This document shows positions 6,064 through 52,616 of a stretch of 52,898 nucleotides of DNA, in pieces (positions within the stretch are counted from its first letter, which is position 1; each line of letters begins with the position of its first letter). The DNA lies in IMG/VR virus record IMGVR_UViG_3300020468_000009, positions 1-52,898 of that record, one strand, 5' to 3'. The position numbers were made by a program, and so were the translations under genes. Source of the stretch: a virus. The notes under the pieces were generated by a model. It saw only the letters and a list, made by a program, of their open reading frames with translations, searched no databases and had not been told where the DNA came from.

Positions 6064-6064
6064 A

Positions 6065-9884: not shown

Positions 9885-9892
9885 TGGTTCTC

Positions 9893-10225: not shown

Positions 10226-10250
10226 ATCTTCCTTACTATAGCAGAAGAAA

Positions 10251-10274: not shown

Positions 10275-10290
10275 AATCTTCAATATTAAA

Positions 10291-11418: not shown

Positions 11419-11441
11419 TTTAATCTCCTCTTATAAATTGT

Positions 11442-16695: not shown

Positions 16696-19600
16696 TAATA
16701 CTCCATTGGTGTAAATACATCAGTAAACTCTTCTTCTACTTCAAACCTAAGTATATCATCATAAACATAGTAGAAATCTGGAAACTGTGAAAATAGTTCT
16801 TGTGCTTTTCTTCTTAACACTTCTCTAAAATATGTATATTCTTGTCTTTTAAGTGTTGCTCTTGGTCCATCTCTTCTTTGTATTTGTGCAAGAACACTAT
16901 CTCTTATTTCTAAATATGATACTAAACCTTGCATTGATGGCAATTCTTTTAATAACATTGTCTCTCCATTAGGAAGATTAACTGTTCTTTCACCTTCATT
17001 TTGTATCATGTTTATAAGTTGCAATCTTTTTGATTCTGCATCAATAGCTTTTGCAGTAGTAGATGTCTGTCCATAGCCAGGATATTCTTGACGTAATGCC
17101 ATTCTATAATCTGTAAGTATTTCATATTTTCTTTCAGGAGTTAGATTTCTATGTGCTCCTGACTCAAATAACAATCTTCTTTGATATTCATAGGCTAATC
17201 TACCTTGTGCTTGTCTTACAGCTGTAACATATTCATCTTCGGATAAATCTACTCTATCTCTATCTGCAAATGAATCAGCCCAAGCAACAAAACTAAATTC
17301 ATCAAGTGGGTTATCTGGAAATAAGTAATATCCAACATCTGGATATATATTTAAAATTTCTTCATTATCTCTACCAAATTTGACACCTTCATCTGTATAA
17401 CTTCTTTTCTTAATCTCTTTTGATTTAGAAACTAATAATGCTGTAGGGTCTAATCCAAACTGATTTACAAATTCTTTTGTAGCAAGAACTTGGTCTCCAC
17501 CATACTTAGAAAGTATTCTATAATACGCATCTGTAAGAATAGACATTCCATAAAAATGATGTTTAGGGTCATCACCTTTTGTTTGTAAAGGGTCTACGAA
17601 TAGTTGTCCACCTGGTGCAACTTCTATATCATATCTTATTACTGCACCTGTAGGAGCAGCAAACTGTATAAATGTTCTTGCTGCAGTTAAAAACATAGCT
17701 GTCTTTTTAGCTTCTTCTAACATTCTTGCTTGTTTAGCTGGTGTAGAATCATCATACAATCCTGTAGTAACAAACATTTTAATTACATCTTTGTATACGT
17801 TAGCAAATCCTCTTTGCATATCAGGGTCTGATGCACCCATAGACATTGCTTTTTTTGCCCATGAAGGTATTAATGCATTTGCATATGTAGCTGGACTTAA
17901 TGCACTCTTTGTTTCTCTTCCATATGGAAAAAATACTTTATCTATTAGTTCTGTTTCAGGTAATATCTTAGACGCTGGTATTCCAACTAATGGTCCAAGA
18001 CCAGGAGCAGGATTACCTACAATCATATTCAAAGATGATACATAACCTTTTAGATTTATTTTTGCATCTGGTGCTGCAAGTTCTTCACCTGTTACAGGAT
18101 TTTTAATTGTTCTTGAATCTCTATTTCCTTCAAACATCCAGTTTGTTAAGAACTCTGAACCAGGAAAGAAAAACATTTCTTCTCCTGTCATTGCATCTGT
18201 GTGAAAGAATCCTTCGTCATCATTATTTAAATCAGCTTTTCTTGCACCATCAATACCTCGTGTTATTTTTCTTGTTGCTAAGAATTTCTTTTGATTCAAT
18301 AATCTTGACCAAGTTCCCATAATCTCTATATATACTTCTGCGAAAGGAAAAGCTAGACGTAACATATCAGATACAACATGTCTTCTATTTAAATCATAAA
18401 GTAATGATTGTGTTTCTGATAATGCGTAGGCTTTTGCTGTTTCATCTAGTGTATCTAAATCTGCAATTCTTAAGAGTTTACCTTCATCAGCTGAAACTTT
18501 TCCTGTTGTATCTAATTGTTTAATAAAACTTTTTGGCAAGTTAGATGCTTGTGCTTGTTGTTTAATTTGTTTTCTAAGTCCATCATCAAAATATGCAATG
18601 TTAGTTTCCATAAATCTCCAATAGAATTGTCTAAATGCAGGAGAACGTGAAAGTCTATTTGTAGGTGCTGACATAACAATACTAAACAATCTTTCTACAG
18701 CAGCATCATAGGAACTTACTCTTTCTCCATCCATATCAAATACAGATTTTTTCATTACGTGTATTGGTTTATAAGGGTCTTTTTTAGCTAACCACTTTGT
18801 ATATGTTTTTTTATTACCAATACTTGCTTTTCTTCCTATAGCTACAGTTTTACCATCAATATCTACAAGTATTGCTTTGTCATCAACAGCATTTATACCT
18901 TTAGATATATGCTCTAATAATTCTGCATCTCCAGTTGTAACAAGTTCAAACTCTATTTCTGATTGTGGAGATTTTCTAATTCTTTTCATTCCTTCCATAT
19001 CTTCAAATACTATACGTGTACCATCTGGTTTAACTTCTGTAACTTTATATGAACCACCTGTTTTGTAATGAACTCTAGCTGCAACCGAATCAATATAATC
19101 ATCAGCCCATTTTCTATCATTTAATATTTTAATTTTTTGATACTTACCTGCTTCATCAGACCCATAAGCTAAAGCTGTTCTCCAACTACTCAAATCTCCA
19201 TCTTCATTCCAAAATCTATCTTTTATATTTTGTAGTCCAGATTTTATATCATCAACTCCACCTTTAAGTGTTGCTATTTCTGCAGCAATAGGGTCATCTA
19301 CTAATTGAAATATTTCTGAGACTGCAGCTCCGTGATATCCTTTATCTCCTTTTTGAACTTCTTTGAATGCAAAAGTTCTTTTAAGTTTATCACCATCTAA
19401 AATTCCACTGTGTGACATAGACATACTTGATTTATGATAAATACTATCTGCTAATATTTCATTGTCTCTAATACCAAACATACCTCTTTGTATGGTTCTA
19501 TCTATATCTAGGTCTTCATATCCTCTTACTCTTCTTAAAACAGATTGTCTATCTTTTCCTAATATCCAAGCAAATGCTGATAGAGGATGTGTAAATACAT

Positions 19601-30652: not shown

Positions 30653-31033
30653 ATGAGTAATTACGTAAATAAAGAAAAGAACTATGACCCGATTGGCTCG
30701 ACTGGATTCTTTGGCGTTAAACGCCTTAGTGTCCCGAGTAGAAAAGGACAAAGTTCTTTTTATCTTGTTAAGATGAATGACTTTTGGACTTCCAAAAGTA
30801 ATTCTCTTGGAACTGTTATCAATCAAGAGCCTTTAACAAACTATGATTGCATCATACAGTTTGAAGCTCTTGTGAATAACAAGAAGTTCCAACTTAACAA
30901 GAACGGAACAATGCCTAAAGAACTTGTATCCATGATGGGGACTAACGAACTCGCACGCGAATTCGAAGGAGTCCCATCATTAGACCAAATCAAAGAGATA
31001 AAATCTGGTTGGTCTAAAGGTCGTAAGGCATAG
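30653..31033 (+). CDS. First early protein, unknown function
   Basis: 126 residues. SNYVNKEKNYDPIGSTGFFG, then basic KRLSVPSRKGQSSFYLVKMN, a middle CIIQFEALVNNKKFQLNKNG and a basic end (SGWSKGRKA). Ribosome site GAAAGG. Strong terminator directly after it, so it is expressed as a single-gene early transcript. This pattern (small basic protein, own promoter and terminator) is frequent for host-takeover or DNA-binding proteins; no family recognised. Confidence 0.72.
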   Translation: MSNYVNKEKNYDPIGSTGFFGVKRLSVPSRKGQSSFYLVKMNDFWTSKSNSLGTVINQEPLTNYDCIIQFEALVNNKKFQLNKNGTMPKELVSMMGTNELAREFEGVPSLDQIKEIKSGWSKGRKA

Positions 31034-31044
31034 TTCCTATGTTG

Positions 31045-31086
31045 TATAGCTCGGGGGGTTTATCCCCCCTTGCTATATATTTTTTT
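31045..31086 (+). terminator. Strong rho-independent terminator
   Basis: TATAGC-TC-GGGGGG-TTTAT-CCCCCC-TT-GCTATA: two stacked stems (6 + 6 bp) around a symmetric 2-base internal loop, then T7. Located 12 bases past the first early gene. A second stem, TTTTTGCA-TTC-TGCAAAAA (31082-31100), overlaps its T-run and could act as an alternative fold or opposite-direction stop. Confidence 0.9.
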
Positions 31087-31344
31087 GCATTCTGCAAAAA
31101 GTTCTAGCTAGTATCATACCAAAACCTACCCCCCATACAAGAAAGAGAACCCCATACAGACCCAGAAAATTTTTTTTTCTTTCGCATATGCAATGGGGAA
31201 CGGCTCTCTATACACGCGTGAAAGGGGATTGTCAAGTCTTCCCCATACATGAGGAAATTTGCAAAGCAAAAATTTTGGCGTAAGATTTTCGGCAAGACAT
31301 TTTTTGTTCTTAAATTTATTTATATTGTAGAAAGGAAATATATT
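31087..31344 (+). other. Non-coding gap with three CCCCATACA repeats
   Basis: No gene. The 9-base motif CCCCATACA occurs at 31131-31139, 31150-31158 and 31241-31249, all in the same direction. Also GGGGA/TCCCC (a 5-bp hairpin near 31224-31245) and GCATATGC. The A/T-rich end carries TATATT and the AAAGGA ribosome site of the next gene. No clear promoter was defined. The repeats could be protein-binding sites. Confidence 0.5.
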
Positions 31345-31827
31345 ATGAGTAGAAAAAAGTATGTTCAGCATACGCCTAAGACAAAGAAAGCATTGACTAA
31401 GGTCATTGAGAGAAATGGTAAGTTAGTTCGTATCTATGTAGATACTGGATTACCTATCATCTCTAGTACGGCAGAGTATATGCTAGAAGTAGAGAATGCT
31501 ACTATACCACACACAGATTGTCGGTACTGTGGCAAATCTACAGACGCTATATCAAGCCTATGTTTTGAGTGTAGAGATTTGAACAAGGATTTAGAAATGA
31601 AGATGAAAAGAATTGCTAAGGTAACGAGAGAACAGATTAGAGAAGGAAGTGTTACTGAGACTGATAAAGGATTAGTACCTAAGAAGTTCGGGGTTACTGA
31701 TGGTAGTTGGAAACCATACAGAGATACTCCTGTTATGGAAGAAGATTATCGCACTTGCAGTCGTTGTTACATTGTCTTACCAATTAGCTTTGGTCGTAAA
31801 AGACTTTGTGAAGATTGCAGAAAATAA
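31345..31827 (+). CDS. Double zinc-ribbon early protein
   Basis: 160 residues from ATG 31345, with AAAGGA 8 bases upstream; the longer frame to 31249 lacks a ribosome site. Two C4 zinc modules: CRYCG...CFEC near 65-81 and CSRCY...CEDC at the C-terminus. Between them a basic helix (LNKDLEMKMKRIAKVTREQI) and a conserved-looking KKFGVTDGSWKPYRDTP. It is directly followed by the structured RNA region. Nucleic-acid binding is likely; target unknown. It is not a WhiB-type iron-sulfur protein since the cysteine spacing differs. Confidence 0.72.
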   Translation: MSRKKYVQHTPKTKKALTKVIERNGKLVRIYVDTGLPIISSTAEYMLEVENATIPHTDCRYCGKSTDAISSLCFECRDLNKDLEMKMKRIAKVTREQIREGSVTETDKGLVPKKFGVTDGSWKPYRDTPVMEEDYRTCSRCYIVLPISFGRKRLCEDCRK

Positions 31828-32230
31828 AGCTAAGTAATTAGCTAGAGTACATAGCCTATACAAGTTAGCCCTTTGTTTACGGGGTTATGTACTCTGTGGT
31901 AATTATATTCATAGAGTGGATATGCCTTTCTACAACCCTGTAGACATACCAACTACTACTAGATATGTCCACTCTGTGAAGCTACCTACCATAAGACCAA
32001 AGGTAACGTTGCGTGTATTGTGGGCTTCATTTCCCACTCCTTTCTCAACGTTGCCTGTAGGTAGCTAGATACTCATACAGAACTATGTTCTCCCTTATAA
32101 AAAATGTTATTAGTCGTGTGGGTATCTAGCTATCTATTCCAAAAGATAGCAATCATGACAAGTTCGGTAATGGGCTAGTTAATTCAGTAGTGCCTCCTTA
32201 AGTGCTAAAGAAAAACTAGCCCTTGCCGAG
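31828..32230 (+). ncRNA. Large multi-stem structured RNA, undescribed
   Basis: About 400 nt without a gene, between two early genes. Stems in order: A 31828-31833/31838-31843; B 31844-31853/31886-31895 (10 bp); C 31908-31924/31964-31980 (17 bp, three G-U) with inner 31929-31934/31939-31944; D 31980-31989/32057-32066 (10 bp), D2 32001-32011/32046-32056 (one G-U), D3 32020-32024/32033-32037; E 32062-32078/32116-32132 (17 bp, two G-U, overlaps D by 5 nt) with inner 32079-32083/32087-32091; F 32129-32134/32145-32150; G 32163-32180/32214-32230 (17 pairs, one bulge, two G-U). Helices abut. The wobbles show RNA rather than DNA selection. Confidence 0.7.
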
Positions 32231-32255
32231 AACCATAGAAAGAGAGAGATATATT

Positions 32256-32405
32256 ATGATATGTGATTTGTGTCATCAAGACACATACATGAAACTAATG
32301 ATAGAAGCAAACGTCAAAAGCTCTGTATATCACAGAGTTATGTGTCGTACTTGTGGCTATCAAACAGTTAAAAGAATGAATACAAAGAAAGGTGGTGTTT
32401 ATTAA
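32256..32405 (+). CDS. 49-aa zinc-ribbon protein
   Basis: Starts at ATG 32256 with a GAGAGAG stretch upstream; a TTG at 32223 lies inside the last RNA stem and is unlikely. MICDLCHQD near the start and CRTCG near 34 form a CxxC...CxxC zinc ribbon with a basic linker. Ends TAATG into the next gene. It closes the structured RNA on its 3' side, so it and the preceding double zinc-ribbon protein flank it. Confidence 0.68.
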   Translation: MICDLCHQDTYMKLMIEANVKSSVYHRVMCRTCGYQTVKRMNTKKGGVY

Positions 32406-33612: not shown

Positions 33613-34142
33613 CAGATGAAGATAGTGATATTAAAGAGTTGAGTGGGAAACTAACTAACTGTGCTATTACAGTAGATATACTTAGGTATCTCAATGACTT
33701 GGCTATTGATATGGAATACAACAGAAGTCTTAATCCAGAGTTTCTTGATGAGACTATGGATACAGAACTAGCTATGAAAATGGACTTAGTTGCTGATACT
33801 AGATTTCCTGTTGTTGTATTGATGGCTACACCTCACTACTACAAACAAGGAACAAGAACAGATATGCACGTAAGACTAATGCTTGATGTTGTTGTTAAAA
33901 GTAAAGTCGGTGCAAAACTAGATAAGGAATATGCAACAGTTACTATTGATGTTCCTTTGGAAGCAATTAATCATCTACCAAATATCCCAGAGATAAGGTG
34001 GATTGATACGGCTTCTACCGACAGAAAGAAATGGAAAGAAGTATGGGACAACGTTGATAAAGATAAGTTAAGTGAAAACTTTATCAAAGACTTTGAAACG
34101 TACTTAGATAATGAAAGGGAAGAAAGAGATGAAGAAGAATAA
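33609..34142 (+). CDS. Early protein of unknown function (177 aa)
   Basis: Helical N-terminus (LSGKLTNCAITVDILRYLND), then a beta-like central region (FPVVVLMATPHYYKQ, MHVRLMLDVVVKSKVGAKLD, YATVTIDVPLEAI), and a long charged C-terminal helix. Ends just inside the AAA+ gene (14-base overlap). Possibly a partner of the ATPase, by neighbourhood only. Confidence 0.65.
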   Translation: MTDEDSDIKELSGKLTNCAITVDILRYLNDLAIDMEYNRSLNPEFLDETMDTELAMKMDLVADTRFPVVVLMATPHYYKQGTRTDMHVRLMLDVVVKSKVGAKLDKEYATVTIDVPLEAINHLPNIPEIRWIDTASTDRKKWKEVWDNVDKDKLSENFIKDFETYLDNEREERDEEE

Positions 34143-34818
34143 TTGGGAATTGCTAGACCTAGTTATTGCTTGTTCGCCAAGAATACTTTTGTATGGTGTT
34201 GCTGGCACGGGCAAAACTTATCAAGCTAATACCCTGAAACTAAAGAAAAATCAAAAGAGCTACAATACTACACTTACGGCAGACAGCACGGCAAGTGAAT
34301 TGATGGGGCATTATATAGCTACTGACAAAGGTGGTTTTGTCTGGCAAGATGGTGTAGGTATTAAAGCTTGGAAAGAAGGTGCAAGACTTGTTATCAATGA
34401 GATAGACCATGCTGGTGTAGATGTTATGACATTCCTACATGCTCTATTAGATGACAAAGAGTTCGCAAAGTTTACTTTACCTAATGTAGATAAAGAAACT
34501 GTAAGACCAGACACAAACTTTCAAGTTATTGCAACTATGAATGGTGTGCCTGATGACTTACCAGAGCCACTTGCAGATAGATTTCCTATCAAGTTAGAGA
34601 TTGATGAAGTACATGAGAGTGCTTTGAACTCTCTACCTGATAAGTTGAAAGCTGTTTACTACGACTACAACAACGGACAGTACTCTGTTCGTAAGTGGAT
34701 TGCTTTCAAGCAGTTGCTAGATAGTGGTATTGATGAACAACAAGCGTGTGCAGTTGTATTCAAAGATGATGCCTATGATATTCTTGAAGCACTAGGTGTG
34801 CAAGATGTCATTATTTAG
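34129..34818 (+). CDS. MoxR/CobS-like AAA+ ATPase
   Basis: 229 residues from ATG 34129 (an in-frame ATG at 34111 is also possible). Walker A GVAGTGKT at 23-30, Walker B RLVINEIDHAG near 86-96, sensor-1-like QVIATMNGVPDD and arginine-finger-like PLADRFPIKLEID near 150. Small, single AAA+ domain, as in MoxR/CobS-type ATPases that act with a VWA-domain partner. The next gene overlaps it by 14 bases and is such a partner. The pair could remodel a metal-bearing or protein complex, possibly of the host. Confidence 0.85.
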   Translation: MKKNNWELLDLVIACSPRILLYGVAGTGKTYQANTLKLKKNQKSYNTTLTADSTASELMGHYIATDKGGFVWQDGVGIKAWKEGARLVINEIDHAGVDVMTFLHALLDDKEFAKFTLPNVDKETVRPDTNFQVIATMNGVPDDLPEPLADRFPIKLEIDEVHESALNSLPDKLKAVYYDYNNGQYSVRKWIAFKQLLDSGIDEQQACAVVFKDDAYDILEALGVQDVII

Positions 34819-36445
34819 TAATAGTGTAAAAGGCTCAATCAAAGTTAAAAGCCAAAAATTACTTCCTAACCTATCTCTTGTAGGTAATGAAGTTAGGAAA
34901 CATGAAGTTGTATATTCTACAACCCCATGGGAAGAAGAACTAAAAGACAGAAATGTAATTGCAGTTCCTAAATCTATGTTGAGTACTACAAGGAAAGACA
35001 GAGAGAATGTAATTAAGGCTCTTATATTGAAGCATAAGTTATTCAAAGGTTGGCGTTTCCGTAACAAGAACCCAGAGTATTTATATTATGCTTTATATCT
35101 TTGGTCGCTCAAAAGACATAAGCACTATCAAAGGGAAACTAGAAAGAAGTTACTTACGGAAGATGAAATCCGTAGTTTAACCTTCTTAGACCGAGATACA
35201 GAAGATAAAGATGAATTGTCTTATGAGCAGAAAAGATTGATTGAGCTAGTAAAAGATGTTGAGTTTCCTGTTATGGACGCGAAATTGTATGAGATTTCGC
35301 TAATGAGATTGATTGGAAACTTATATCGTACTAACAATGTTGATATGTTTATTAAGGAATACGTTAGAGAAAATATCTTTACAAAGTATTCTTACAAAGC
35401 AAACAACAGAGAGATAGTAGAAGTTGCAGTTCAAAGTAATATTGATGTACGTTTACCACAACATGTAGCGTTACAAGATAGAAGCTTTCTTAACATGCTA
35501 GTAGAATATTGCATGTACAAAGTGCAATCTACACAACGATATGCTATGAATACATACACGGGATATTGGGATTGGGACGAAGTAAAAAAGACATGGACAA
35601 GAAAAGAATATTGGAATAAATCTAAGGTAAGACATAGAATTAACAATATTTACAAATTGCTTGTTAAAAAGCCAATGTCTAATTCAATATCACAAGGTGG
35701 ATTACCTAGTGCAGATTATCAAGAAGTGCCAGAAGAAGATATGGTACTTAAATTACCACCAGAAATCAAAGGCAAACTTGCTGATGAAATTATGGAAGAT
35801 GCCGACAGAAAGCATAAGACTGCTTTTGATTGGTATCAAGGTAATGGTGTTCATGGTAATGCTATGTTGCACAAGTTCAATGGAACTAGGAAGATACACA
35901 AAGCTATTAGAGAGCTTAGGCGAAACAATAGTGATGTAGGTGTTGTACCTAGAAACATGCACAGAATGACTACCGACCGAAAAGTTTTCTCTACTAAGAG
36001 AAGCGTAGCAGGGGGTAGCATGCTGATAGATTGTTCTGGAAGTATGGGCTTAACAATGAGAGATGTTGAAGAAATTGTCAATAATTTACCAGCTAGTACT
36101 ATAGCTGGTTATGTTGGATTTCCACATGAAGTAAATGGTATTCATGGCGACATTCGTATCATTGCACAGAACGGCAGAATTAGTGATGAAGCTATGCAAG
36201 AATTACAAAATCATGGATACAACTCCATTGATAAAGAAGCTCTTGAATGGCTAGCTAAACAACCAGAGCCACGAATATGGGTAAGCGACCAACAAGTTGT
36301 TGGTGTTACCGAGAAAGGTGGACACCCTACTAATCTTACCAAACATGGTTTAGATGAAATTAAAAGTATTATGTTACAAAACAACATAATACCTATTGAA
36401 GATGAAGAACAAGTTAAGGCAGTAGCTAAGAAACTTGCCTTATAA
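34805..36445 (+). CDS. VWA-domain protein, partner of the AAA+ ATPase
   Basis: 546 residues. Charged helical N-terminal two thirds with a WRFRNKNPEYLYYALYLW motif, then a basic linker. The VWA/MIDAS domain begins near 402: LIDCSGSMG supplies the DxSxS site at about 408-412, and WVSDQQVVG near 490 the distal Asp. ATG at 34805 chosen; an in-frame GTG at 34796 lies deeper in the ATPase. Gene-pair architecture matches CobS/CobT or MoxR/VWA systems. Ends before a terminator, so the early operon closes here. Confidence 0.85.
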   Translation: MSLFSNSVKGSIKVKSQKLLPNLSLVGNEVRKHEVVYSTTPWEEELKDRNVIAVPKSMLSTTRKDRENVIKALILKHKLFKGWRFRNKNPEYLYYALYLWSLKRHKHYQRETRKKLLTEDEIRSLTFLDRDTEDKDELSYEQKRLIELVKDVEFPVMDAKLYEISLMRLIGNLYRTNNVDMFIKEYVRENIFTKYSYKANNREIVEVAVQSNIDVRLPQHVALQDRSFLNMLVEYCMYKVQSTQRYAMNTYTGYWDWDEVKKTWTRKEYWNKSKVRHRINNIYKLLVKKPMSNSISQGGLPSADYQEVPEEDMVLKLPPEIKGKLADEIMEDADRKHKTAFDWYQGNGVHGNAMLHKFNGTRKIHKAIRELRRNNSDVGVVPRNMHRMTTDRKVFSTKRSVAGGSMLIDCSGSMGLTMRDVEEIVNNLPASTIAGYVGFPHEVNGIHGDIRIIAQNGRISDEAMQELQNHGYNSIDKEALEWLAKQPEPRIWVSDQQVVGVTEKGGHPTNLTKHGLDEIKSIMLQNNIIPIEDEEQVKAVAKKLAL

Positions 36446-40047: not shown

Positions 40048-42128
40048 ATTTGTTTCCTAAACATAAACGCAGCCATACTTGCTATTCTAGTCAAAATTAC
40101 AGGGACTACCACCTCTTGTGCTTTTTCTTTCTGGTCAGATGTCATATCATTTCCTATAGTTGCAATACTTATATCTTCAAAATCTATATCTACAAAAGTT
40201 TCTATTGGATTCTCTAAGAATGTTTCAAACTGTACCTCTGTTACTACGTCAGCAAGTGTGTAGTTTTCTACATCTGCATTCTCTACAGCTCTTTCAACGT
40301 ATTCTTCTACAGCTTCTGCTACAACTTCATCCTCTTGTATTGCTTCTGCAATGATTTCAACGTCTTCAGTCTGTACCTGTAGTACCTCAGCAACAACCTC
40401 AACTTGTTCTTCAGTAAGTATTTCAATATCATCAATAGCCTCCTCCACTACAGCCTGTATGACCACCTGTGTTTCCTCGGTGGCTTGAGATAGATTTTGT
40501 ACACCTATATCATTTACCTCTTCAAGAACTTCTACAACTTCTTCGGTGTCGAGTTCTTGCACAAAAGTTTCAATAACTTCTTCGATTTGTTCATCTGATA
40601 AATCTTCTTCCTCTATATCAGGTATCTCTATTATTTCTTCTAGTTCTTCAATCTCTTCTTCAACCATCTCTTCAGTAAGTACCTCTTCAATCTCCTCGGC
40701 AATATCTTCCACCTGTAGAACTTCAGGTTCTTCATTGTCATCTCTTCGTATATCCTTTTCGAGTAACTCATCTTTATCTTCTTTTATTTTCTCTTGAACT
40801 TCTTCTAAATCATTTTGTATATCTTCTTCAGAAGGTGGGAACAAATCTGTTTCTATATAAAATTCTACCATATCTATCTCTATTTCTTCTATATCCTCTA
40901 TAATTACAAACTCAAACTCTTCTAAATCTTCTAAATACTCTTCTACTTCTATGATTGTGTCTATGTATTCATCCATTTGTTCTTCAGATTCAAACTCCAA
41001 TATCTCAATCTCTTCTTCATATTCAAGTTTCTTAACATCTCTTTCCATTTGTCTGTCAAGCTCTTCAATCTCTTCATCTGTAAGTTCAACTTCCACATAC
41101 TCAGGTATATCAACATCATCAAAAAACTCTTCTCCGATTTCTGATTCCATAATTTGTAACTCATCTTGTTCATAATCTCTTTCAAGTTGTTCATCAGTTA
41201 ACTCAACTCCATACATTTCTAGGTTATTTTGTCTCTGTTGGTCTCTTTCTAATGTACCATCATCTATTTCTCTTTGTGAATATTCTACAATTTCACCACT
41301 ATCTAGCTCTATAGGTATATCTTTTATTTCTTCAGGTGGAATTATAAATATAGGTTCAGGCTCAGGTTCGGGTTCGGGTGGTGGCGGTAATGTAGTTGTG
41401 GTTGTTGTTGGTTGTATGTACTTAAATGATATGTCATCAAGTAGTGACCAGTCATTTATTGTTATTGTAAAGCTATCTATAAATGTATCTAAAGTGTCGT
41501 AAATGTTATAAACTACATCTTCAAACATAGTCTGTATGTTGCTGTTGCTTTGCCCTTCTAAAACATTCTCTTGTGTAGTTTCATCTGTATGTGTGTATGT
41601 AACTGTGCCATCATTATTTAATGCACCGATTCTAAAACCTACTTCATATATATCTATGTCTAATACTTCATCATCAACTGTTGTTGTATCAGGTAAGGTA
41701 AATATATAATCATTACTACTATCGCCATGTCTTTGATAATGTAAATTCATATGATAGTCAGTCATTCCACAGCACTGCCAATTACCATTACTGTGTTGGT
41801 CATCTATTTGTATATTGTTATCTACTTCATTACCTTGACTATCTAATTCATCTTCAGGTAAAACTATATCTGTAGTTTGTTCGTATGTATCAGGCACAGT
41901 TGTAGTAGTAGTTGTTGTAGTTGTGTCTGTGTTATTAGGAATAGTTGTGGTCGTAGTTGTTTCATCAGGACCATCAAATGTCTCTATCTCTTCTACTTCT
42001 CCAGGTATAGTCGTAGTAGTAGTTGTCGTTGTTGTAGTTGTATTATCTTCTTCATTAGCTAACGCTGAGAGCGGTAACATAACAAGAGATACTACTAACC
42101 ACCATTGCAGCAGCCGTGTCCGCAGCAT
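40044..42128 (-). CDS. Secreted, membrane-anchored Thr-rich/acidic surface protein
   Basis: 694 residues. Residues 1-24 form a signal peptide (MLRTR, hydrophobic core, ALA cleavage-like end). Then two Thr-rich stretches ending in IP/VP, a globular part (about 100-230, with a CC pair and several Tyr/His), TTTTTTLPPPPEPEPEPEP, and 400 residues of Glu-rich helix (VELTDEEIEELDRQMERDVK) likely coiled coil. Near the end a hydrophobic segment (VVVPVILTRIASMAAFMF) followed by RKQ gives a membrane anchor. Not a tail fibre: it is designed for export. It sits between small membrane proteins and lysis genes. A role in lysis or blocking superinfection is possible. The other allele at 1-945 is clearly diverged. 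Confidence 0.78.
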   Translation of the reverse strand: MLRTRLLQWWLVVSLVMLPLSALANEEDNTTTTTTTTTTTIPGEVEEIETFDGPDETTTTTTIPNNTDTTTTTTTTTVPDTYEQTTDIVLPEDELDSQGNEVDNNIQIDDQHSNGNWQCCGMTDYHMNLHYQRHGDSSNDYIFTLPDTTTVDDEVLDIDIYEVGFRIGALNNDGTVTYTHTDETTQENVLEGQSNSNIQTMFEDVVYNIYDTLDTFIDSFTITINDWSLLDDISFKYIQPTTTTTTLPPPPEPEPEPEPIFIIPPEEIKDIPIELDSGEIVEYSQREIDDGTLERDQQRQNNLEMYGVELTDEQLERDYEQDELQIMESEIGEEFFDDVDIPEYVEVELTDEEIEELDRQMERDVKKLEYEEEIEILEFESEEQMDEYIDTIIEVEEYLEDLEEFEFVIIEDIEEIEIDMVEFYIETDLFPPSEEDIQNDLEEVQEKIKEDKDELLEKDIRRDDNEEPEVLQVEDIAEEIEEVLTEEMVEEEIEELEEIIEIPDIEEEDLSDEQIEEVIETFVQELDTEEVVEVLEEVNDIGVQNLSQATEETQVVIQAVVEEAIDDIEILTEEQVEVVAEVLQVQTEDVEIIAEAIQEDEVVAEAVEEYVERAVENADVENYTLADVVTEVQFETFLENPIETFVDIDFEDISIATIGNDMTSDQKEKAQEVVVPVILTRIASMAAFMFRKQI

Positions 42129-42141
42129 TCCATATTACCTC

Positions 42142-42327
42142 CTACATTAGTGCGTTGACCAACACCACCAATGCAGAGCCTGCAACCAACCAACCACTTA
42201 ATTCTTGTCGTGATATTTTTGAGTTTACTTTTTCGTGAAGTAAATCAATTCTTTCGTTTGTTTTTTCTTGTGTTTCAATAATTATATTGAGCAACTCTTT
42301 ATTTGTATAACCATTACCATTACTCAT
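42142..42327 (-). CDS. XhlA-like small membrane protein (copy 2)
   Basis: Second-haplotype copy of 959-1144. Differs at two residues (Ser to Leu and Thr to Ser in the coiled coil); the membrane helix is unchanged. The start at 42327 overlaps the upstream stop as ATGA. Confidence 0.75.
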   Translation of the reverse strand: MSNGNGYTNKELLNIIIETQEKTNERIDLLHEKVNSKISRQELSGWLVAGSALVVLVNALM

Positions 42328-42449
42328 TTTATCCAATCCCAATCTTCTTCTGTATAATTATCAGGTACATTTGGTGATACGAGGTCATCTAACCAAACAT
42401 AAAAGTTTTTTAAAAAGTATCCAAATATAAATCCGATTAAATAATCCAT
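42324..42449 (-). CDS. 41-aa membrane microprotein (copy 2)
   Basis: Diverged allele of 1141-1266: MDYLIGFIFGYFLKNFYVWL, then DDLVSPNVPDNYTEEDWDWIK. About one third of residues differ, yet the frame, hydrophobic helix and DWDW tail are kept, which is evidence for selection on the protein. Confidence 0.7.
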   Translation of the reverse strand: MDYLIGFIFGYFLKNFYVWLDDLVSPNVPDNYTEEDWDWIK

Positions 42450-42456
42450 CAAAAGA

Positions 42457-43146
42457 TTATAGCATACGCTTTGGTCGTTTCCTTTTTATACCTTCAAATA
42501 TCGTACGAATATTTCTATGAAAATTTATACTAGCAGTTGAGTAAGACATATATTTTAGAATATCTTCTGTTGGTTCTATTTCTTTTAAGTCTATAGGTTT
42601 ATTAAAAAATATTGTGTTACATGGATTACCTTTTACTAAATTAATTGTTGCAGGTTTATTTATATCGTCCTGTACCCATGCAAGATTAATTGGTCTTAAC
42701 CAAGCATAAGGATAGAAAGAACCTATAACAGCAGAACAATTAGTTTTGTCTACATTGTCTAATGGGTTCATTAAAGACATTTCTAAATCTTTATCATCAG
42801 TTACAAATATCATACTTATTGTTTGTTGCAGTACAGCTCTTCCATCATCAGTAGCTCTAACAGATAACATATCACCCATCAATGTGTGCATATCATCAGA
42901 TGTACTATGAACTTTTTCATCTAACATATAGTTGTAATATGGTCCTTCTTTATTTATACCAAATTCTATTTGTACACTTAATATTCCAGGCAAAGTAAAA
43001 AGTCTATTATTTAATCCACCAATAGATGGACAACCATAAACATTGTTATTTATTTTCTTTAACTCTTGTTGTAATGAGGGATGCATAAAATCGTTAGGTA
43101 TATAAAAATATCCTGCTTTAGTTTTTTTTAATTTAGGATACACCAT
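42457..43146 (-). CDS. Divergent fourth paralog (copy 2)
   Basis: Copy of 1274-1963. Two residues near the C-terminus differ (EG versus DS) and a silent change occurs at 42565; from there rightwards the copies appear identical. Confidence 0.75.
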   Translation of the reverse strand: MVYPKLKKTKAGYFYIPNDFMHPSLQQELKKINNNVYGCPSIGGLNNRLFTLPGILSVQIEFGINKEGPYYNYMLDEKVHSTSDDMHTLMGDMLSVRATDDGRAVLQQTISMIFVTDDKDLEMSLMNPLDNVDKTNCSAVIGSFYPYAWLRPINLAWVQDDINKPATINLVKGNPCNTIFFNKPIDLKEIEPTEDILKYMSYSTASINFHRNIRTIFEGIKRKRPKRML

Positions 43147-43865
43147 TACTTAAATCTTTTCTTAGACCAACTTGTATCACGATAATGATTTTGCATAGTA
43201 GCATTAAAACCATTTTCAGCTAAAACATCTAGCTCACCATCTTGTAGATACTCTGTCTCCATAGACCAGGACTCTCTTTGAAATGGTATTATCTGTGCTA
43301 AAGGTGTCCCTTTAGTTATAATGCCTGTAAAATCTTCTTTTAACCACATAGGAAAATGAAAGTTTAATACTTCTTTATCTGTATCTACTATGGCAGGTAT
43401 CATTCTAAGAGGTGTATCATGCCAACCAAAAGGTTGTGTAATTAAACAACTGTAACCTTTAGGTGTTTTAATTATTGTATTCCAAATGTAATTAACAACT
43501 TGACTATTGTATCCAGTAGGTGGTTCTATTATATTTGTACTTGTGTTGTGTATTGTAAATAACAGCTCATCACTATTCCACTGCAAATCAAATACATTGT
43601 CTTTGTTGTGTTGAACAATCATATCTTTACGTAGCTCTACAATATAACCTGCTTTCATAGTATCAATGAAAGGTAAACACTTTTTAAATGTCATGTTCTT
43701 TCCTTCATCTGTCATCATAAGTTTTTTATCAGGTGTTCCATCACTCATATAAACAGGTGACATAGAATACCAAGATGGCTTATAGAGATAAGCAGGTTTA
43801 GGTGCAGGTTGTATTTTAGAATATCGTTTATTTATAGCTACAAATTTAATCTTTTTGTTTAGCAT
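43146..43865 (-). CDS. PAK..P.W paralog 3 (copy 2)
   Basis: Identical protein to 1963-2682. The start at 43865 was chosen for its AGGAAG ribosome site, as in copy 1. Confidence 0.78.
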   Translation of the reverse strand: MLNKKIKFVAINKRYSKIQPAPKPAYLYKPSWYSMSPVYMSDGTPDKKLMMTDEGKNMTFKKCLPFIDTMKAGYIVELRKDMIVQHNKDNVFDLQWNSDELLFTIHNTSTNIIEPPTGYNSQVVNYIWNTIIKTPKGYSCLITQPFGWHDTPLRMIPAIVDTDKEVLNFHFPMWLKEDFTGIITKGTPLAQIIPFQRESWSMETEYLQDGELDVLAENGFNATMQNHYRDTSWSKKRFK

Positions 43866-44568
43866 TACGCTTCCTAAACAGTTTCCTATATCCATTTTTA
43901 AATGAACCAAGATTATTTACATAGCCTCTGGCGGAAAGTTCTTCATCCCATTCTTGTAAAACTAAATTATACTCTTCTCTTTTATAAGGAACTATATAAC
44001 ATAATGGTGTGCCTTGTGCAATAAATACATCTTTTACACCATTCTTTAACATAATTTGTGGATTAATTAAATGATATTGGTCAGTGTGTATTATTCCATA
44101 AGCCACTTCCCAATCAGGATTGTTGTGCCATAACATTGGTATCTGCATTATTGAGTATCCATCAGGAGTAATACACTCCCAAGTGTTATCTAATTTAAAA
44201 ACAAAATCAAAATTAGAATCTCCATAATCAAGAAATTGGTCACGACTATGTATTACTATTTCTATTCCAGGTATTCCTGTTTCAAATCTCCAGTCACCAT
44301 TATCTTTGTTATACATTAATTGTAAATCACATGGTGCAGGTATTACATATCCAGTATTAAAAACATCTACAAAAGATGGGCATAACTTTGCTGTTCTTGT
44401 TTCACTGTTAGGACCAGTATGTTTGTAAGGGTCTAATGGATTATGTTCTATATCTGCAGCAGCAGGTGTATTTTTCCATATCTCAGGTATAAAATTTTTA
44501 GCAGGTTGTACAGTTACTTCTGAATTAAGTAATCCTTTTATAGGTGTTTGAAACTTTACATCTATCAT
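43846..44568 (-). CDS. PAK..P.W paralog 2 (copy 2)
   Basis: Identical to the protein at 2663-3385, with the same 4-base coupling to its neighbour at 44565-44568. Confidence 0.8.
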   Translation of the reverse strand: MIDVKFQTPIKGLLNSEVTVQPAKNFIPEIWKNTPAAADIEHNPLDPYKHTGPNSETRTAKLCPSFVDVFNTGYVIPAPCDLQLMYNKDNGDWRFETGIPGIEIVIHSRDQFLDYGDSNFDFVFKLDNTWECITPDGYSIMQIPMLWHNNPDWEVAYGIIHTDQYHLINPQIMLKNGVKDVFIAQGTPLCYIVPYKREEYNLVLQEWDEELSARGYVNNLGSFKNGYRKLFRKRNAKQKD

Positions 44569-45257
44569 TTGTTAAATCTTCTATAACCATTTTTAAATTT
44601 AGATAATGCTCTATGCATACTGCCTTCTATCTGTGGTTTATACTTATCATAGTTATTATCTATGACTAATTCATAATCTTCTCTTTTAAATGGAACATAA
44701 TAACATAAAGGTTCACCTGCTTTAATAAGTATTTCTTTCTTGTTACTTGTATAGCAAATTTGTAAATTAACTTCATTTACTACATCTGCTTTTAGAACAC
44801 CATAAGCTACATGCCAATCAGGATTGTATTCATAAAACAGTGGTAATTGTCTTACACTATAACCTTTAGGAACAATTATTCTGTAAGGATAATTTAATTT
44901 AAATATTTGTTTTATTACAGGGTTAGGTAAAAAATTATTAAGCTGTCCTTGTCCATGCATTGATATATCAAAGGCTTCATTAGATGTTTTCCAAGCCCAA
45001 TCATTTACACCATCACCATCAACACTTAACCATATATCACAAGGTGCAGGTAAAACAAACCCTTCTGTAAATATATCTAAGAAGTTAGGACATAACTTTG
45101 CTGTTCTAAAGTTAGGTATTTCTGTGTAATTTGTTTCATACTCTACATCTGAAGGCATATTTTTATACCATTCAGGGATATAATTTTTTGCAGGTTGTGG
45201 TTGAAATTCTTTTATGTCTCTGTGTCCAATCACATCAGAAGTAAATATTATTTTCAT
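44565..45257 (-). CDS. PAK..P.W paralog 1 (copy 2)
   Basis: Identical to the protein at 3382-4074, including the AGGTGGAG ribosome site upstream. Confidence 0.8.
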   Translation of the reverse strand: MKIIFTSDVIGHRDIKEFQPQPAKNYIPEWYKNMPSDVEYETNYTEIPNFRTAKLCPNFLDIFTEGFVLPAPCDIWLSVDGDGVNDWAWKTSNEAFDISMHGQGQLNNFLPNPVIKQIFKLNYPYRIIVPKGYSVRQLPLFYEYNPDWHVAYGVLKADVVNEVNLQICYTSNKKEILIKAGEPLCYYVPFKREDYELVIDNNYDKYKPQIEGSMHRALSKFKNGYRRFNK

Positions 45258-45273
45258 TCTCCACCTATGTTAG

Positions 45274-45771
45274 CTAATCGCCTAAATCTTGTCCTTGTAA
45301 TGCATCTTCATCAGCTTGTGTCCATTGAACAAATTCCCAACCTGTTGTATTGTCTGCTTGATATGCTGTTTCATTCCATCTATGTAGCCATATTTCATCA
45401 GCAGGTTTACTTGTAATATAATCAGGTTGTGCTGCTGCATCATTTGGGTCTATGTCTGCTAATGGATGAGGTAATGGAGCTACATATTCGTTCTTTGTAT
45501 CATCCCAAGTCCAACTATCAAATGGTTTTGGTTCTTGAAATTTATCAAGAGAGCTATCATAAGTTCCACCAATGTGTGCAAAGTTACCTCTTATATTGCT
45601 GTTATAAGATGTTTGAACCCATGTGCCTTCTAGTTTTAAAACATTAGCTATATAGTCTAAACCAAGTTGTTCTGTATCTGTACCTGTAGATTCAGGGTCT
45701 GTAATATCATTTGAAATAACAATAACTTGTTCTACTGTATTGTCATCTGCTATTTTTGCAAAGTGTGCCAT
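45274..45771 (-). CDS. Tail-fibre accessory protein, MAHFAK family (copy 2)
   Basis: Identical to the protein at 4091-4588; TAATG coupling with the glycine-rich adhesin is also kept. Confidence 0.8.
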   Translation of the reverse strand: MAHFAKIADDNTVEQVIVISNDITDPESTGTDTEQLGLDYIANVLKLEGTWVQTSYNSNIRGNFAHIGGTYDSSLDKFQEPKPFDSWTWDDTKNEYVAPLPHPLADIDPNDAAAQPDYITSKPADEIWLHRWNETAYQADNTTGWEFVQWTQADEDALQGQDLGD

Positions 45772-46667
45772 TAGAAAGTAATACTTCCTGTCCCATTAAA
45801 TTGATATATATTATTGCTACCACTTGTTGATGTTATTGGAGAACCAGTAGTTGCTGCTGCTGTAGCTGTAGTGCTTAGGATAATTGTTCCTGAACCTCCG
45901 CCACCACCGTTAAAAGTTTGTCCATGGTTTCCGTGACCTCCGCCACCTCCGCCACCGCCAAGGTTTCCAGAGCCGCCTCCACCGCCGCCGCCTTTACCGC
46001 CGCCGCCGCCTCCACCAGAGCCACCGCCACCGCCGTGTTGTTCTCCTCCTGCATAGATACGATAGTAAGCACCGCCACCACCGCCTCCAGCACGAGTTAC
46101 AGCAGAACCAGTAATTGATGATGAAGCACCTGAGCCACCTGCTCCTCTGTTTTGACCAGAAGCATTGCCACCTGTTGCCCCTGCTCCACCACCACCAGAG
46201 TTACCTCCGCTATTTCCTTCAGCAGGAGAGTAACCTCCAGAGTTTCCTGCTTTGCTTGTGCCACCGCCTGAACCTCCTGTAGCATTAGAACCGCCACCAC
46301 CTGTAGCGTTAATTAAAATATTTCCTGAAGTTGTTTCTGCAATTCGTGAAAACCCACCATTAGCACCAGTTGTTCCGTGACCTGCACCTGAACCACCACT
46401 GCCACCTGCACCAATTGTCATTGTGTATTCAACACCTTGTATAAAACCTACTGTCCCTGTTCGGTATCCACCTCCACCACCGCCACTAGCAGTAGAGCCT
46501 CCTCCTCCACCACCGCCACCTAAGACAAGAAAATCAACTGAAACTTTACCACCCCAGTTGTTATCTTCTGTTAGGTTAGTGATGTCATCTAATCCGAACA
46601 CACCTTGAAGTGCAGCAGTATCATCTGCTACATTTCCTATAAATCCATATTTTTTTCTTTCTACCAT
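45771..46667 (-). CDS. Glycine-rich tail adhesin (copy 2)
   Basis: Identical to the protein at 4588-5484. Receptor-binding genes normally vary between strains, so full identity over this repetitive GC-rich gene supports a shared assembly path rather than independent haplotypes in this core. Confidence 0.85.
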   Translation of the reverse strand: MVERKKYGFIGNVADDTAALQGVFGLDDITNLTEDNNWGGKVSVDFLVLGGGGGGGGSTASGGGGGGYRTGTVGFIQGVEYTMTIGAGGSGGSGAGHGTTGANGGFSRIAETTSGNILINATGGGGSNATGGSGGGTSKAGNSGGYSPAEGNSGGNSGGGGAGATGGNASGQNRGAGGSGASSSITGSAVTRAGGGGGGAYYRIYAGGEQHGGGGGSGGGGGGGKGGGGGGGSGNLGGGGGGGGHGNHGQTFNGGGGGSGTIILSTTATAAATTGSPITSTSGSNNIYQFNGTGSITF

Positions 46668-46686
46668 TTAAAAAAAAACTCCTTGT

Positions 46687-47013
46687 TTAGACGTCTATTT
46701 CAAGAACGCTGAGTGTCATTTCTAAATCTGATGCTGCACCTGCCCAGGACCTAAGTTCATCAGCAGCTTCTAGTACTAGCTTTCCTCCAATAGGATTTAT
46801 TGCAGTCTTTGCTGGTACTGATAATGCTGAAACTAGAGCTGAGACAACTGAACCATCATTCATGTCAACGTTTAAATCTGCAGCATTTGTACCGTCTACG
46901 TTAGCAACTTGACAATGAATAACCACTGCGATTTTGCTAGCTGGACAGGTATAAACTACTGCATCTGCACTATTACCTAGTGCTGTGTTAACTGTTTGAA
47001 ACGCTTCTGCCAT
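46687..47013 (-). CDS. Small virion/tail protein (copy 2)
   Basis: Identical to the beta-rich 108-residue protein at 5504-5830. Confidence 0.7.
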   Translation of the reverse strand: MAEAFQTVNTALGNSADAVVYTCPASKIAVVIHCQVANVDGTNAADLNVDMNDGSVVSALVSALSVPAKTAINPIGGKLVLEAADELRSWAGAASDLEMTLSVLEIDV

Positions 47014-47039
47014 AATTTATCTCCAATATAATTAATTAA

Positions 47040-47246
47040 TTAACTATCTCCCAATACTATAGCACGACTTTGTGTCGCAGTCACGCTTGTTACCGAAAGA
47101 CTTTCGTAAGTTAATCTGAGGGCTAGGGATATACCTGCTCCTCCTGCTTCATTTAAAGTTAAATCTAAATCTTCATCTAACTTTGTATTTCCTTTAGCCT
47201 CTAAGACTAAATCGCCACCTTCTTTAAGCATCATGAGCATACTCAT
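47040..47246 (-). CDS. Small fibre-cluster protein (copy 2)
   Basis: Identical to the 68-residue protein at 5857-6063, with AGGAGG upstream. Confidence 0.65.
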   Translation of the reverse strand: MSMLMMLKEGGDLVLEAKGNTKLDEDLDLTLNEAGGAGISLALRLTYESLSVTSVTATQSRAIVLGDS

Positions 47247-47247
47247 A

Positions 47248-48150
47248 TTATCCTCCTAACGCCAAGACCATACCTAATGTTGTACCTGCACCTGGGTACA
47301 ATGTAATCTCACCTTGTCCACCCATTCCTGAGTGTCCACCTGTAGAGCAGTAGTAATATAATTTAGAAGTTGCTCCTGCTATACCTAAAGTTTCAGGTGT
47401 AATTTCTATTTGATGATAAGCATTAGCACTTCCAGGACTACCACTTGATGTTACATTAGTTGTAAACTCTGAACCTCCACCATGAGTACCATCTCTTGTT
47501 ACAGAAAATTTAAAGTTATGTCCTGATAAAGATGAGTCTGCTAAATCAAATTTGTATTTAAAACCTAATTGAAGTATAAAATTAGCTGACCTTGTACCTG
47601 CACCTGAATCAGTACCTGATAAAAAGTAAAATACATTTTGACTACCTGAGCCATCATCTGCTACTTTTACTGTAATAACAATTGTCTGTGATGCAGTACC
47701 TGCGGTGATACCATCTATCTGTGCTTGAATATTAGAACTTGCATTATCTAGATATTGAAACTCTGTATTACTTATGCTTCCATCACCAATAATTGTTGCA
47801 GCTATTGCTGAAGGACCAGCATCAATTCTGTCGTGAATATCTTCAAACATTTCTTTTACAACTGCCATACGAACTACAGTTCCATCTGCATGTGTAGGGT
47901 CAGAAGTATGTCTAGTTTCTACATCTCTAGTAATTGCAGATAAAGTTGTACCTGATGCACCAGTTACTAATATAACTTCTCTGTTTGATGCACTGTCAGG
48001 GTCTAATACTAAATAATATGGTGCTGCTATGTTTGATGTTCCATTTGATGTAGGTGCAGCAGTCAAAGTTGCTGATGAGCTACCTGATGCTAATACACCA
48101 TTTAATGTTGTTTCAAAAAAGTTTGCAAATTTTACTTCTTGTGCAGTCAC
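47248..48150 (-). CDS. Tail fibre with cupredoxin-like domain (copy 2)
   Basis: Identical to the protein at 6065-6967, with the same GTG start and His211/Cys268/His273/Met276 set. Confidence 0.8.
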   Translation of the reverse strand: MTAQEVKFANFFETTLNGVLASGSSSATLTAAPTSNGTSNIAAPYYLVLDPDSASNREVILVTGASGTTLSAITRDVETRHTSDPTHADGTVVRMAVVKEMFEDIHDRIDAGPSAIAATIIGDGSISNTEFQYLDNASSNIQAQIDGITAGTASQTIVITVKVADDGSGSQNVFYFLSGTDSGAGTRSANFILQLGFKYKFDLADSSLSGHNFKFSVTRDGTHGGGSEFTTNVTSSGSPGSANAYHQIEITPETLGIAGATSKLYYYCSTGGHSGMGGQGEITLYPGAGTTLGMVLALGG

Positions 48151-50085
48151 TTAAGCTCCAAATTTCATAAATCCTAATGCGTTGATACCAAACACTTCTG
48201 CAGAAGTTACATCAGTAACAACATTCTGTCTCGTTCCACGCACTGTAAGTATAGCATATTGAACTACACTTCCTACTTCTGTATTAGATTGTACAGGATA
48301 GCTTATACTTTCTACAACACCTCTAATAATTTCATTAGGGTCAAAGATTTCAAGGGTAACAGCATCACCTTCTTTATCTCTTAATGCATTGTACAAAGTA
48401 TCTCCTAAACCTTTAACTTTAACTGGTTTTCTATTTGGTCTATTTACTCTGTCTGATATATTTATTGGTATTCTTGCTACAACTAATTCTGGTCTTGCTA
48501 ATGCTCGAAACTGTACAGATTTTACTTTAGGTGTATTAGCAGTATTAGAAGTTTTTAAAGTTATCTTACCTACTAAATATCTTGATACTTTTTCAATCTG
48601 AACTTCGTTGTCACCAGTACCTGTAGTTTGTGTTATAACATTATCAAAAGAACTATCTCCTGAGTTGTTTAATGATTCAAACTTTGTAGATACATCTATT
48701 TCAACACTTGTACCAGCAGTTAACAATTCTGTTGATACTTCTGCACCAACAAACTGTTTATTTTCTGCTGTAAAGAAATCTACTGCAGGTAACAATAAAA
48801 AACCTTCAGATTCAAATACAGATGTTTGTGCAAATAAACCTGAGCCAGAAACTACAAAAGAAAACTTTTCATTTAATTTACATATTCCTGTAACTAATCC
48901 ACCTGCTGCAGCTTTATAATATCTAGCAATACCAGCAGAAGGTAAATAGTATCTCCATAAAAAACTTGTTGAAGCAGATTCTTTTATACCTGTGTAAACA
49001 GAGTCTCTTGTTGCATATATTTTTTTTGGTGAAGCATCTATGTTATCAATATCCCATTCTTTTATTAATTGATTTTCTCCAAGAACATATAAGTCATCTG
49101 CTGTTTGTAAATTTGCTCTATATAATCTACCTATTTTTTTTGCTGTAGTTTGGTCTTCTCTAGTTCCATAAAATACAATTCCATTTGATTCTGCAATACA
49201 AGTAGGAATTTCATTAGTAATTTCTGTTTGTCCTTTTAGTGTAAAAGAGCCAGATACATCTTTAAAAGAATATATTCTTCCATCTGTGGCTGTAGCTAAT
49301 ACAACAGCACCAGCATCAACTACATCTGTCCAAGTTTCACCAGATGCTAAAGTAACTAATACTGAACTTACAGTTGTAGCACCATCATATTCATAAATGC
49401 CTGTACCTGCAGATACTAAAAACTTTCCTTTAACTGACCATATACCATCAAATTGATGTGCTGTTGACTTTTGTGTAGAAGTACCTGAAGAATTTAACGT
49501 TTCTATTTCTCCTGCAGAAGAACCGTTATTAGCAACCATATACAATAAATCTCCATGTGCAGCCATACCTTTAATTTGTTGACCACCAGTAATTCCATGA
49601 GATTGTGCTGAATAGGTTTCACCACCATCATCTGATTTATATAATGTTGCATCATCTGAAACGTATATAGTAGTTCCTACTTGTGCAAGGTAGTTATCAG
49701 CATCACTTGATGAAAGACTTCTTAAATTTGTAGTTGTGTTTAGTAATGATATATTGTAAGAATTACCTAAGTCTTTTCCAAATACATCAACACCTGAACT
49801 ATCCCAGAATCTTATTGTATCTTTTTCTGTACCGTCTCTTCTATGAGCACTATCTAAATTAGAACCACCACTAAAATCATTTCTTGAAAATACTCTACCT
49901 AAGTTTGATGTAAAGTCTTCTGCATTCTGTCTAACATTTACTTGTCCACCTTCAACATCTGAAGATTGAATAGTCATATCTCTTCCAGGTCCTACAGCAG
50001 CTCTTAATAACATATCGTCTAGTTTTATGTCATATCCATATCTTTTTGGATTACTTATGTTTATTGTTGTTGCTACTCTAGGCAT
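48151..50085 (-). CDS. Propeller-containing tail/nozzle-like protein (copy 2)
   Basis: Identical to the 644-residue protein at 6968-8902. Confidence 0.72.
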   Translation of the reverse strand: MPRVATTINISNPKRYGYDIKLDDMLLRAAVGPGRDMTIQSSDVEGGQVNVRQNAEDFTSNLGRVFSRNDFSGGSNLDSAHRRDGTEKDTIRFWDSSGVDVFGKDLGNSYNISLLNTTTNLRSLSSSDADNYLAQVGTTIYVSDDATLYKSDDGGETYSAQSHGITGGQQIKGMAAHGDLLYMVANNGSSAGEIETLNSSGTSTQKSTAHQFDGIWSVKGKFLVSAGTGIYEYDGATTVSSVLVTLASGETWTDVVDAGAVVLATATDGRIYSFKDVSGSFTLKGQTEITNEIPTCIAESNGIVFYGTREDQTTAKKIGRLYRANLQTADDLYVLGENQLIKEWDIDNIDASPKKIYATRDSVYTGIKESASTSFLWRYYLPSAGIARYYKAAAGGLVTGICKLNEKFSFVVSGSGLFAQTSVFESEGFLLLPAVDFFTAENKQFVGAEVSTELLTAGTSVEIDVSTKFESLNNSGDSSFDNVITQTTGTGDNEVQIEKVSRYLVGKITLKTSNTANTPKVKSVQFRALARPELVVARIPINISDRVNRPNRKPVKVKGLGDTLYNALRDKEGDAVTLEIFDPNEIIRGVVESISYPVQSNTEVGSVVQYAILTVRGTRQNVVTDVTSAEVFGINALGFMKFGA

Positions 50086-51067: not shown

Positions 51068-51075
51068 TGGTTCTC

Positions 51076-51408
51076 CTAACTATGTCTAAAGTGTAATGTT
51101 AAACTTCTATCTGCTGCTTCATTTCCGTCAGATGTAATTCTAATGTAACCATTGCTAGCAAAAGCCCAACCTGATGGGTCAACTCTTAAAATGTCTCCAG
51201 CTGAAACTGTATAAGTTACATCAGTTCCATCTGTTTCTTTTACATCAACCCAAGTGCTATTGTCCATTGCGAAGTCAAATGAAATATTAGAACCTGTCAT
51301 TGCTGCTGGAAATTGTATACCACAAAGTAACATTCCTTCAGTTTGTACTCCAAGAGAGTTGCTGTTATCTGCAGAAATATCTATTAAACATGTTTTTGAT
51401 TTAATCAT
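51076..51408 (-). CDS. Small virion protein next to capsid (copy 2)
   Basis: Identical to the 110-residue protein at 9893-10225. Confidence 0.65.
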   Translation of the reverse strand: MIKSKTCLIDISADNSNSLGVQTEGMLLCGIQFPAAMTGSNISFDFAMDNSTWVDVKETDGTDVTYTVSAGDILRVDPSGWAFASNGYIRITSDGNEAADRSLTLHFRHS

Positions 51409-51433
51409 ATCTTCCTTACTATAGCAGAAGAAA

Positions 51434-51457
51434 AGGGTGGAGGTGGAGTTCCACCCT
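51434..51457 (-). terminator. Leaky terminator after capsid gene (copy 2)
   Basis: Same AGGGTGGA/TCCACCCT stem and TTTTCTT tail as at 10251-10274. Confidence 0.7.
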
Positions 51458-51473
51458 AATCTTCAATATTAAA

Positions 51474-52592: not shown

Positions 52593-52616
52593 TTTTATCT
52601 TCTCCTATTTAAATTG

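Follow-up and report, generated by a model that had tools for sequence, protein, structure and literature searches.

A structured phage RNA that appears to be assembled from exchangeable stem-loop cassettes

The gene-free stretch at 31828-32230 of the window (the whole 52,898-nt DNA of virus record IMGVR_UViG_3300020468_000009) is almost certainly a real structured RNA, and comparison with related viral sequences indicates that it is, with high probability, an array of exchangeable cassettes. By itself, the 403-nt RNA would only add another entry to the orphan structured RNAs; the new part is the exchangeable-cassette organisation, for which we know of no counterpart. A search of open-licence papers returned no description of such an organisation in a viral RNA. 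It suggests that phages trade structured RNA domains, as well as genes, in the form of cassettes with standard connectors. It also supplies a catalogue of about a hundred previously unknown structured RNA domains with clear borders in a natural display format, and gives searches for RNA-based takeover or counter-defence in uncultured ocean phages a definite starting point.

On the + strand, 31828-32230 folds with a minimum free energy of -154.6 kcal/mol, compared with -94.2 ± 5.4 kcal/mol for 100 dinucleotide shuffles (z = -11.3; none of the 100 as good), which rejects a chance origin of the structure; the - strand gives z = -4.3 against its shuffles. Local folding resolves six main hairpins (Table 1). 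A preliminary description of this DNA had counted at least seven abutting stem-loops; the near absence of linkers stands, and the 17-bp stem with G-U pairs that it listed is real. Its statement that the 403 bases hold no gene also holds: no open reading frame is conserved in any frame, and the longest stop-free run on the + strand is 76 codons. Neither frame nor length is preserved among relatives, because entire hairpins are gained or lost, and a coding region is rejected. Searches of Rfam at gathering level across the full window and nine relatives returned no match, those at E ≤ 3 over the window array gave only chance-level eukaryotic microRNA models, and in the arrays of the window and of a related locus, L035, the GOLLD and ROOL covariance models had no match at E ≤ 3. 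A known RNA family is thus rejected. Cultured phages contain no meaningful DNA match and are likewise rejected.

Table 1. Positions of the array hairpins, an exposed motif and the flanking genes in the window
Feature	Position	Strand	Remarks
Zinc-ribbon-like protein gene, 160 aa, upstream	31345-31827	+	Sub-threshold Pfam zinc-ribbon matches only; syntenic in relatives
H1 hairpin	31834-31906	+	Compensatory stem changes in relatives; interior replaced in L003 and L010
H2 hairpin, 17-bp stem with G-U pairs	31908-31980	+	CCTTTCT at 31925-31931
H3 hairpin, type D cassette	31981-32065	+	Between arm a GCTACCTAC and arm a' GTAGGTAGC
TCCTTTC, unpaired	32038-32044	+	Mean unpaired probability 0.86; complements GAAAGGA ribosome-binding sites
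H4 hairpin, type C cassette	32066-32128	+	Arms c/c'; TGTTCT conserved in loop
Short hairpin GCTATCTA..AGATAGC	32129-32150	+	Alignment with L003
H6 hairpin	32162-32231 (start approximate)	+	Arms as in L003; interior unrelated to that of L003
Small zinc-ribbon-like protein gene, 49 aa, downstream	32256-32405	+	Sub-threshold Pfam matches; syntenic in relatives

Searches with the terminase and with proteins encoded nearby gathered about 150 viral loci. Between the two zinc-ribbon-like genes, 31 distinct sequences have a hairpin array of 156-668 nt, and the gene strand folds better in all 31 (median z, -8.0 versus -4.4); like those behind our other counts, these sequences are mutually related and are not independent events. 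All loci are metagenome assemblies, in which chimeras are possible for single loci and less so for the whole pattern. Close relatives differ by entire hairpins or entire hairpin interiors. With interiors replaced wholesale, a single fixed RNA fold is rejected: the undescribed RNA of about 400 nt of the preliminary description is indeed undescribed and structured, but is a variable chain of cassettes.

The stems of these relatives carry compensatory changes. Seven positions of the H1 stem are paired in 9 of 9 distinct versions, compared with 67% when the arms are shuffled, through pairs of arms such as TACATAG/TTATGTA, TAGTCTG/TGGACTA, TGTTTTG/TAAAACA and GGTTTTG/TAAAACC. The outer 14 positions of H2 are 97% paired versus 50% shuffled (n = 10, with stems taken from predicted folds). 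Together with the shuffle controls, the strand asymmetry, the G-U pairs and the lack of an Rfam match, this covariation bears out the earlier proposal of a structured RNA selected at the RNA level. A+T-rich DNA often contains short palindromes, and the - strand, too, has a modest folding advantage over its shuffles, as functionless intergenic palindromes might; that reading is already refuted by the shuffle controls, the covariation and the conservation across phages with half-diverged proteins, and we give it next to no credence.

The short hairpin at 32129-32150 is probably what is left of a type-A cassette after loss of its contents; in L003, where a covariance-model search finds type A, this cassette is intact. 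The same search finds none in the window. The sequence GTAGGTAGC (32057-32065) can pair with 31981-31989, and its last eight bases can pair alternatively with 32129-32136. The minimum-energy folds choose differently, with the upstream pairing in the window and the downstream pairing in L003, so that the switch suggested earlier from a 5-nt overlap of two stems is possible.

Along the arrays, reusable arms alternate: a (AAGCTATCTA), a' (TAGGTAGCTT), b (GTAGCACATA) and b' (TGTGTTAC). Matches to an exact 19-base stretch from a'-b occur in at least 120 viral contigs, and exact-pattern scans undercount. With relaxed arms, the B cassette (GTAGGTAGCTTGTAGCACATA...TGTGTTACAAGCTATCTAT) is represented by 194 distinct elements with 183 different inserts. 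Its conservation ends sharply at the borders of a 20-21 bp stem, the pairs of which are 97-100% paired in the 194 elements, a value raised by construction because the elements were selected by arm similarity. True double changes nevertheless occur at several pairs, among them L12-R7 (TA/GC/AT/CG) and L17-R2 (CG/TA/GC/AT), and consistent differences between left and right arms produce G-U pairs on the transcribed strand. Of the 164 B elements that have flanking genes, 120 are located between co-oriented genes and 1 opposes both of its neighbours.

The B inserts span 5-177 nt, and those of at least 25 nt form 96 similarity groups; one group of ten members has compensatory changes in 6 of 18 predicted pairs. 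In some B payloads, from L032, L035, L051 and L047, a T-arm-like hairpin (for example, ATAGG-TTCAAAT-CCTAT) lies beside a second helix. It reaches 13.9 bits with the tRNA model (cut-off, 29), and neither ARAGORN nor Rfam finds a tRNA or tmRNA cloverleaf in the window or in 42 loci; identity with tRNA or tmRNA is rejected, though some inserts end in such a hairpin. At least four B cassettes are spread over more than one intergenic region in L254 (1913, 3111, 3306 and 3646) and in L323, from genome G053 (16722-18456).

Exchange of the inserts is visible where the surroundings are nearly identical. In 22 pairs of B elements, both 70-nt flanks are at least 80% identical and the inserts differ; in several of these the flanks are about 91-100% identical and the inserts unrelated, with about 50% identity being the global-alignment background for unrelated inserts. 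The flanks of L040 and L033 are 99 and 100% identical around inserts of 175 versus 50 nt, and unrelated inserts separate flanks that are 100 and 100% identical in L215/L239 and 99 and 93% identical in L281/L239. In 12 carriers we found no dedicated exchange machinery: the Y1 transposase (PF01797) and tyrosine recombinase (PF00589) are both absent, the latter with control genomes positive, although a host enzyme is still possible. A phage-borne Y1 transposase or tyrosine integrase is rejected as the exchange route, and because these 12 carriers have neither enzyme we infer homologous recombination between the short, near-identical arms.

Could the cassettes be DNA elements, that is, inverted repeats at the ends of a tiny mobile element, a recombination site like attC, or a palindrome used in replication or packaging? 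Inverted repeats of 20-21 bp with sharp borders, variable interiors and many copies in many phages are what one would expect of them. We consider this very improbable, given that the arm differences consistently create G-U pairs on the gene strand, orientation follows the genes, the + strand folds better in 31 of 31 arrays, internal loops and terminators are conserved, and the 12 carriers have neither enzyme. Cassettes of integrons are bordered by imperfect inverted repeats at attC and are exchanged, as the array cassettes are; the latter, however, are RNA domains and not genes, an RNA nature is indicated by their G-U bias and their orientation along the gene strand, and their carriers have no tyrosine recombinase. 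They resemble REP and IS200-type elements in being short intergenic inverted repeats in several copies, but differ from REP and IS200/IS605 elements in their 20-21 bp stems, their large, variable, structured inserts, the lack of Y1 transposase in the carriers, and their presence in two largely unrelated phage groups. The array has single features, the anti-Shine-Dalgarno-like loop and the loop-E-like motif, in common with known kinds, and is assigned to no known RNA family or mobile-element class.

In 34 of 46 carrier records, many of the others being fragments, the terminase is 51-73% identical to that of the window. Genomes G053 (52 kb) and G031 (72 kb) come from a different group of phages, sharing 1 and 6 proteins, respectively, with the window and 18 between themselves, yet they carry the same cassettes. 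For both the terminase and the exonuclease, most of the best cultured relatives are actinophages, with low identity, and the only terminase match in the genome collection is a contig binned with an Actinomycetota metagenome-assembled genome (MAG). Because the bin contains another such phage contig, the link could be due to binning alone; a marine actinobacterial host is likely. The 20-base arm had 0 matches in bacterial and archaeal genomes totalling 257 Gb, which rejects prophage residence. As a tentative wider reading, phages of one marine host group may draw RNA payloads on a universal stem from a common pool and trade them between unrelated phages, an RNA-only counterpart of an anti-host gene island; if so, payload trading would counter changing host targets or defences.

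The type-A cassette has the layout GCTATCTA-n-AGTARGA-[stem]-..CCCTGTT..-[stem]-nACYGAAAG-TAGGTAGC. In an alignment of 13 sequences, 96.9% of cells are paired versus 81.0% shuffled, 10 of 15 pairs have changes in both partners, and covariation scores 0.509 compared with 0.184 for shuffles (0 of 500 as high). Among 57 distinct modules picked by loop motifs only, with pairing ignored, the inner helix is complete in 86% (34% shuffled, maximum 47%) and the outer helix in 96% (71% shuffled). A covariance model built from the 13 sequences finds type A throughout the group and as far as a cassette of MAG contig L327. When only the stem and CCCTGTT were used to find cassettes, 91 of 94 (redundant loci counted) had AGTA opposite GAA between two helices, a strand pair that matches the loop-E (sarcin-ricin, bulged-G) consensus, the likeness being at the level of sequence. 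In L212, L227, L237, L248 and L266, the type-A hairpin is the last cassette and eight T's follow directly; there it doubles as a predicted intrinsic terminator that closes the array, and a factor binding the loop could therefore act on termination.

Two single-stranded motifs recur. In 18 representative arrays at the window locus, TCCTTTC has 13 copies versus 0.1 expected (3 on the - strand) and CCCTGTT has 14 versus 0.3 (none on the - strand). CCCTGTT persists in 41 of 85 distant arrays (2 expected) and TCCTTTC in only 10 of 85 (1.6 expected), which rejects the latter as a feature of all arrays; its - strand count is high in distant arrays because the stretches include ribosome-binding sites of small genes. 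At the window locus, TCCTTTC is mostly unpaired (0.82 on average), and H6 exposes CCTCCTT at 32193-32199 (unpaired, 0.85). TCCTTTC is the complement of GAAAGGA, and early window genes at 30653, 31345 and 33257 start after AGAAAGGA. The 3' end of actinobacterial 16S rRNA, CCTCCTTTCT, would fit this loop motif; the Actinomycetota MAG contains no 16S end. Pairing of TCCTTTC with GAAAGGA ribosome-binding sites is a possibility that we put forward with reserve. RNAIII, RsaE and the cuckoo RNAs are regulatory RNAs with C-rich, anti-Shine-Dalgarno loops complementary to ribosome-binding sites. An unpaired pyrimidine-rich loop of this kind is present in the array at the window locus, but its motif is confined to one or a few modules and is missing from most distant arrays, and its targets are putative.

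The array is probably transcribed with the early genes. A strong intrinsic terminator, CGGGGGG..CCCCCCTTG with a T-run, lies at 31046-31088 directly after the gene at 30653-31033, and the downstream gene group with the array is therefore probably a separate transcription unit. The main rival to the display RNA described below is an array that acts in cis, as leader or attenuator of the early genes that follow, working by alternative pairings, sequestration of the ribosome-binding site, or gating of termination by type A. The array directly precedes the ribosome-binding site of the 49-aa gene (AGAAAGAGAG, 32237-32246) at the window locus, with which TCCTTTC could partly pair; arm a' has two possible partners; and several distant phages use type A as an intrinsic terminator. 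Nonetheless, the number, order and interiors of the cassettes vary upstream of the same gene in near-identical phages, the same cassettes elsewhere precede or follow quite different genes, and the downstream site in L010 is AAGAGAGAGG, not GAAAGGA. On balance, we think a leader unlikely, if worth keeping in view.

The flanking zinc-ribbon proteins, suggested earlier as possible binders of the RNA, are rejected as obligate partners in general, because cassettes also occur at loci and in phages without a detected zinc-ribbon gene. The small one is found in only 36 of 152 newly fetched loci (tblastn, E ≤ 1e-3), a scan that may miss remote homologues or genes outside the stretch.

The best explanation overall, which we believe and doubt in about equal measure, is a modular display RNA with exchanged payloads. 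In such an RNA, the outer stems would be reusable adaptors in a chain of stem-loops, and entire payloads would be exchanged by recombination at the short conserved arms, so that pairing is kept while the interior changes. The constant modules would be the loop-E-like CCCTGTT cassette, which can double as a 3' terminator, and the module exposing unpaired TCCTTTC; the remaining modules would be hypervariable structured inserts. The array would then be an RNA display scaffold that targets either host molecules or translation. Loops of the TCCTTTC type are able to base-pair with ribosome-binding sites of sequence GAAAGGA, and the variable payloads probably serve as decoys or binders on which diversifying selection acts. 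This trans-acting role, proposed from motif complementarity and diversity only, is plausible at somewhat less than even confidence, and a host- or translation-directed function is our best guess. Sponge RNAs of the CsrB type are rows of hairpins that display loop motifs. The array likewise consists of many consecutive hairpins showing loop motifs, but no motif is found in every hairpin and its interiors are diverse and swapped.

GOLLD and ROOL, both encoded by phages, assemble into cages made of RNA alone, and pull-down experiments reportedly showed ribosomes binding to GOLLD (PMC12286853). The array is also a large, elaborately folded phage non-coding RNA with recurrent structural motifs, among them loop-E-like and T-loop-like hairpins, and with this precedent several array RNAs might be imagined to form a similar cage or another large particle. 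GOLLD and ROOL, however, each have one conserved fold and often lie near tRNAs, whereas the array consists of variable, interchangeable cassettes, and the window and 42 loci contain no tRNA. Module number, order and interior vary widely even between near-identical phages, which fits one fixed quaternary structure poorly, and Rfam has no match for the array; we regard such a particle as improbable, though a little less so than a DNA element.

Further along the window, at 34111-36445, a gene for a MoxR/CobS-like AAA ATPase is followed by one for a 549-aa protein, and this pair stays near many arrays. The motif LIDCSGSMG of the 549-aa protein resembles a vWA domain, and Pfam has no match to the protein. 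The ends of the window (206-11582 and 41356-52757) repeat each other with 96.6% identity and 51 gaps, consistent with a genome of about 41 kb, either circular or with terminal redundancy, that was assembled past one unit, the second pass being slightly different.
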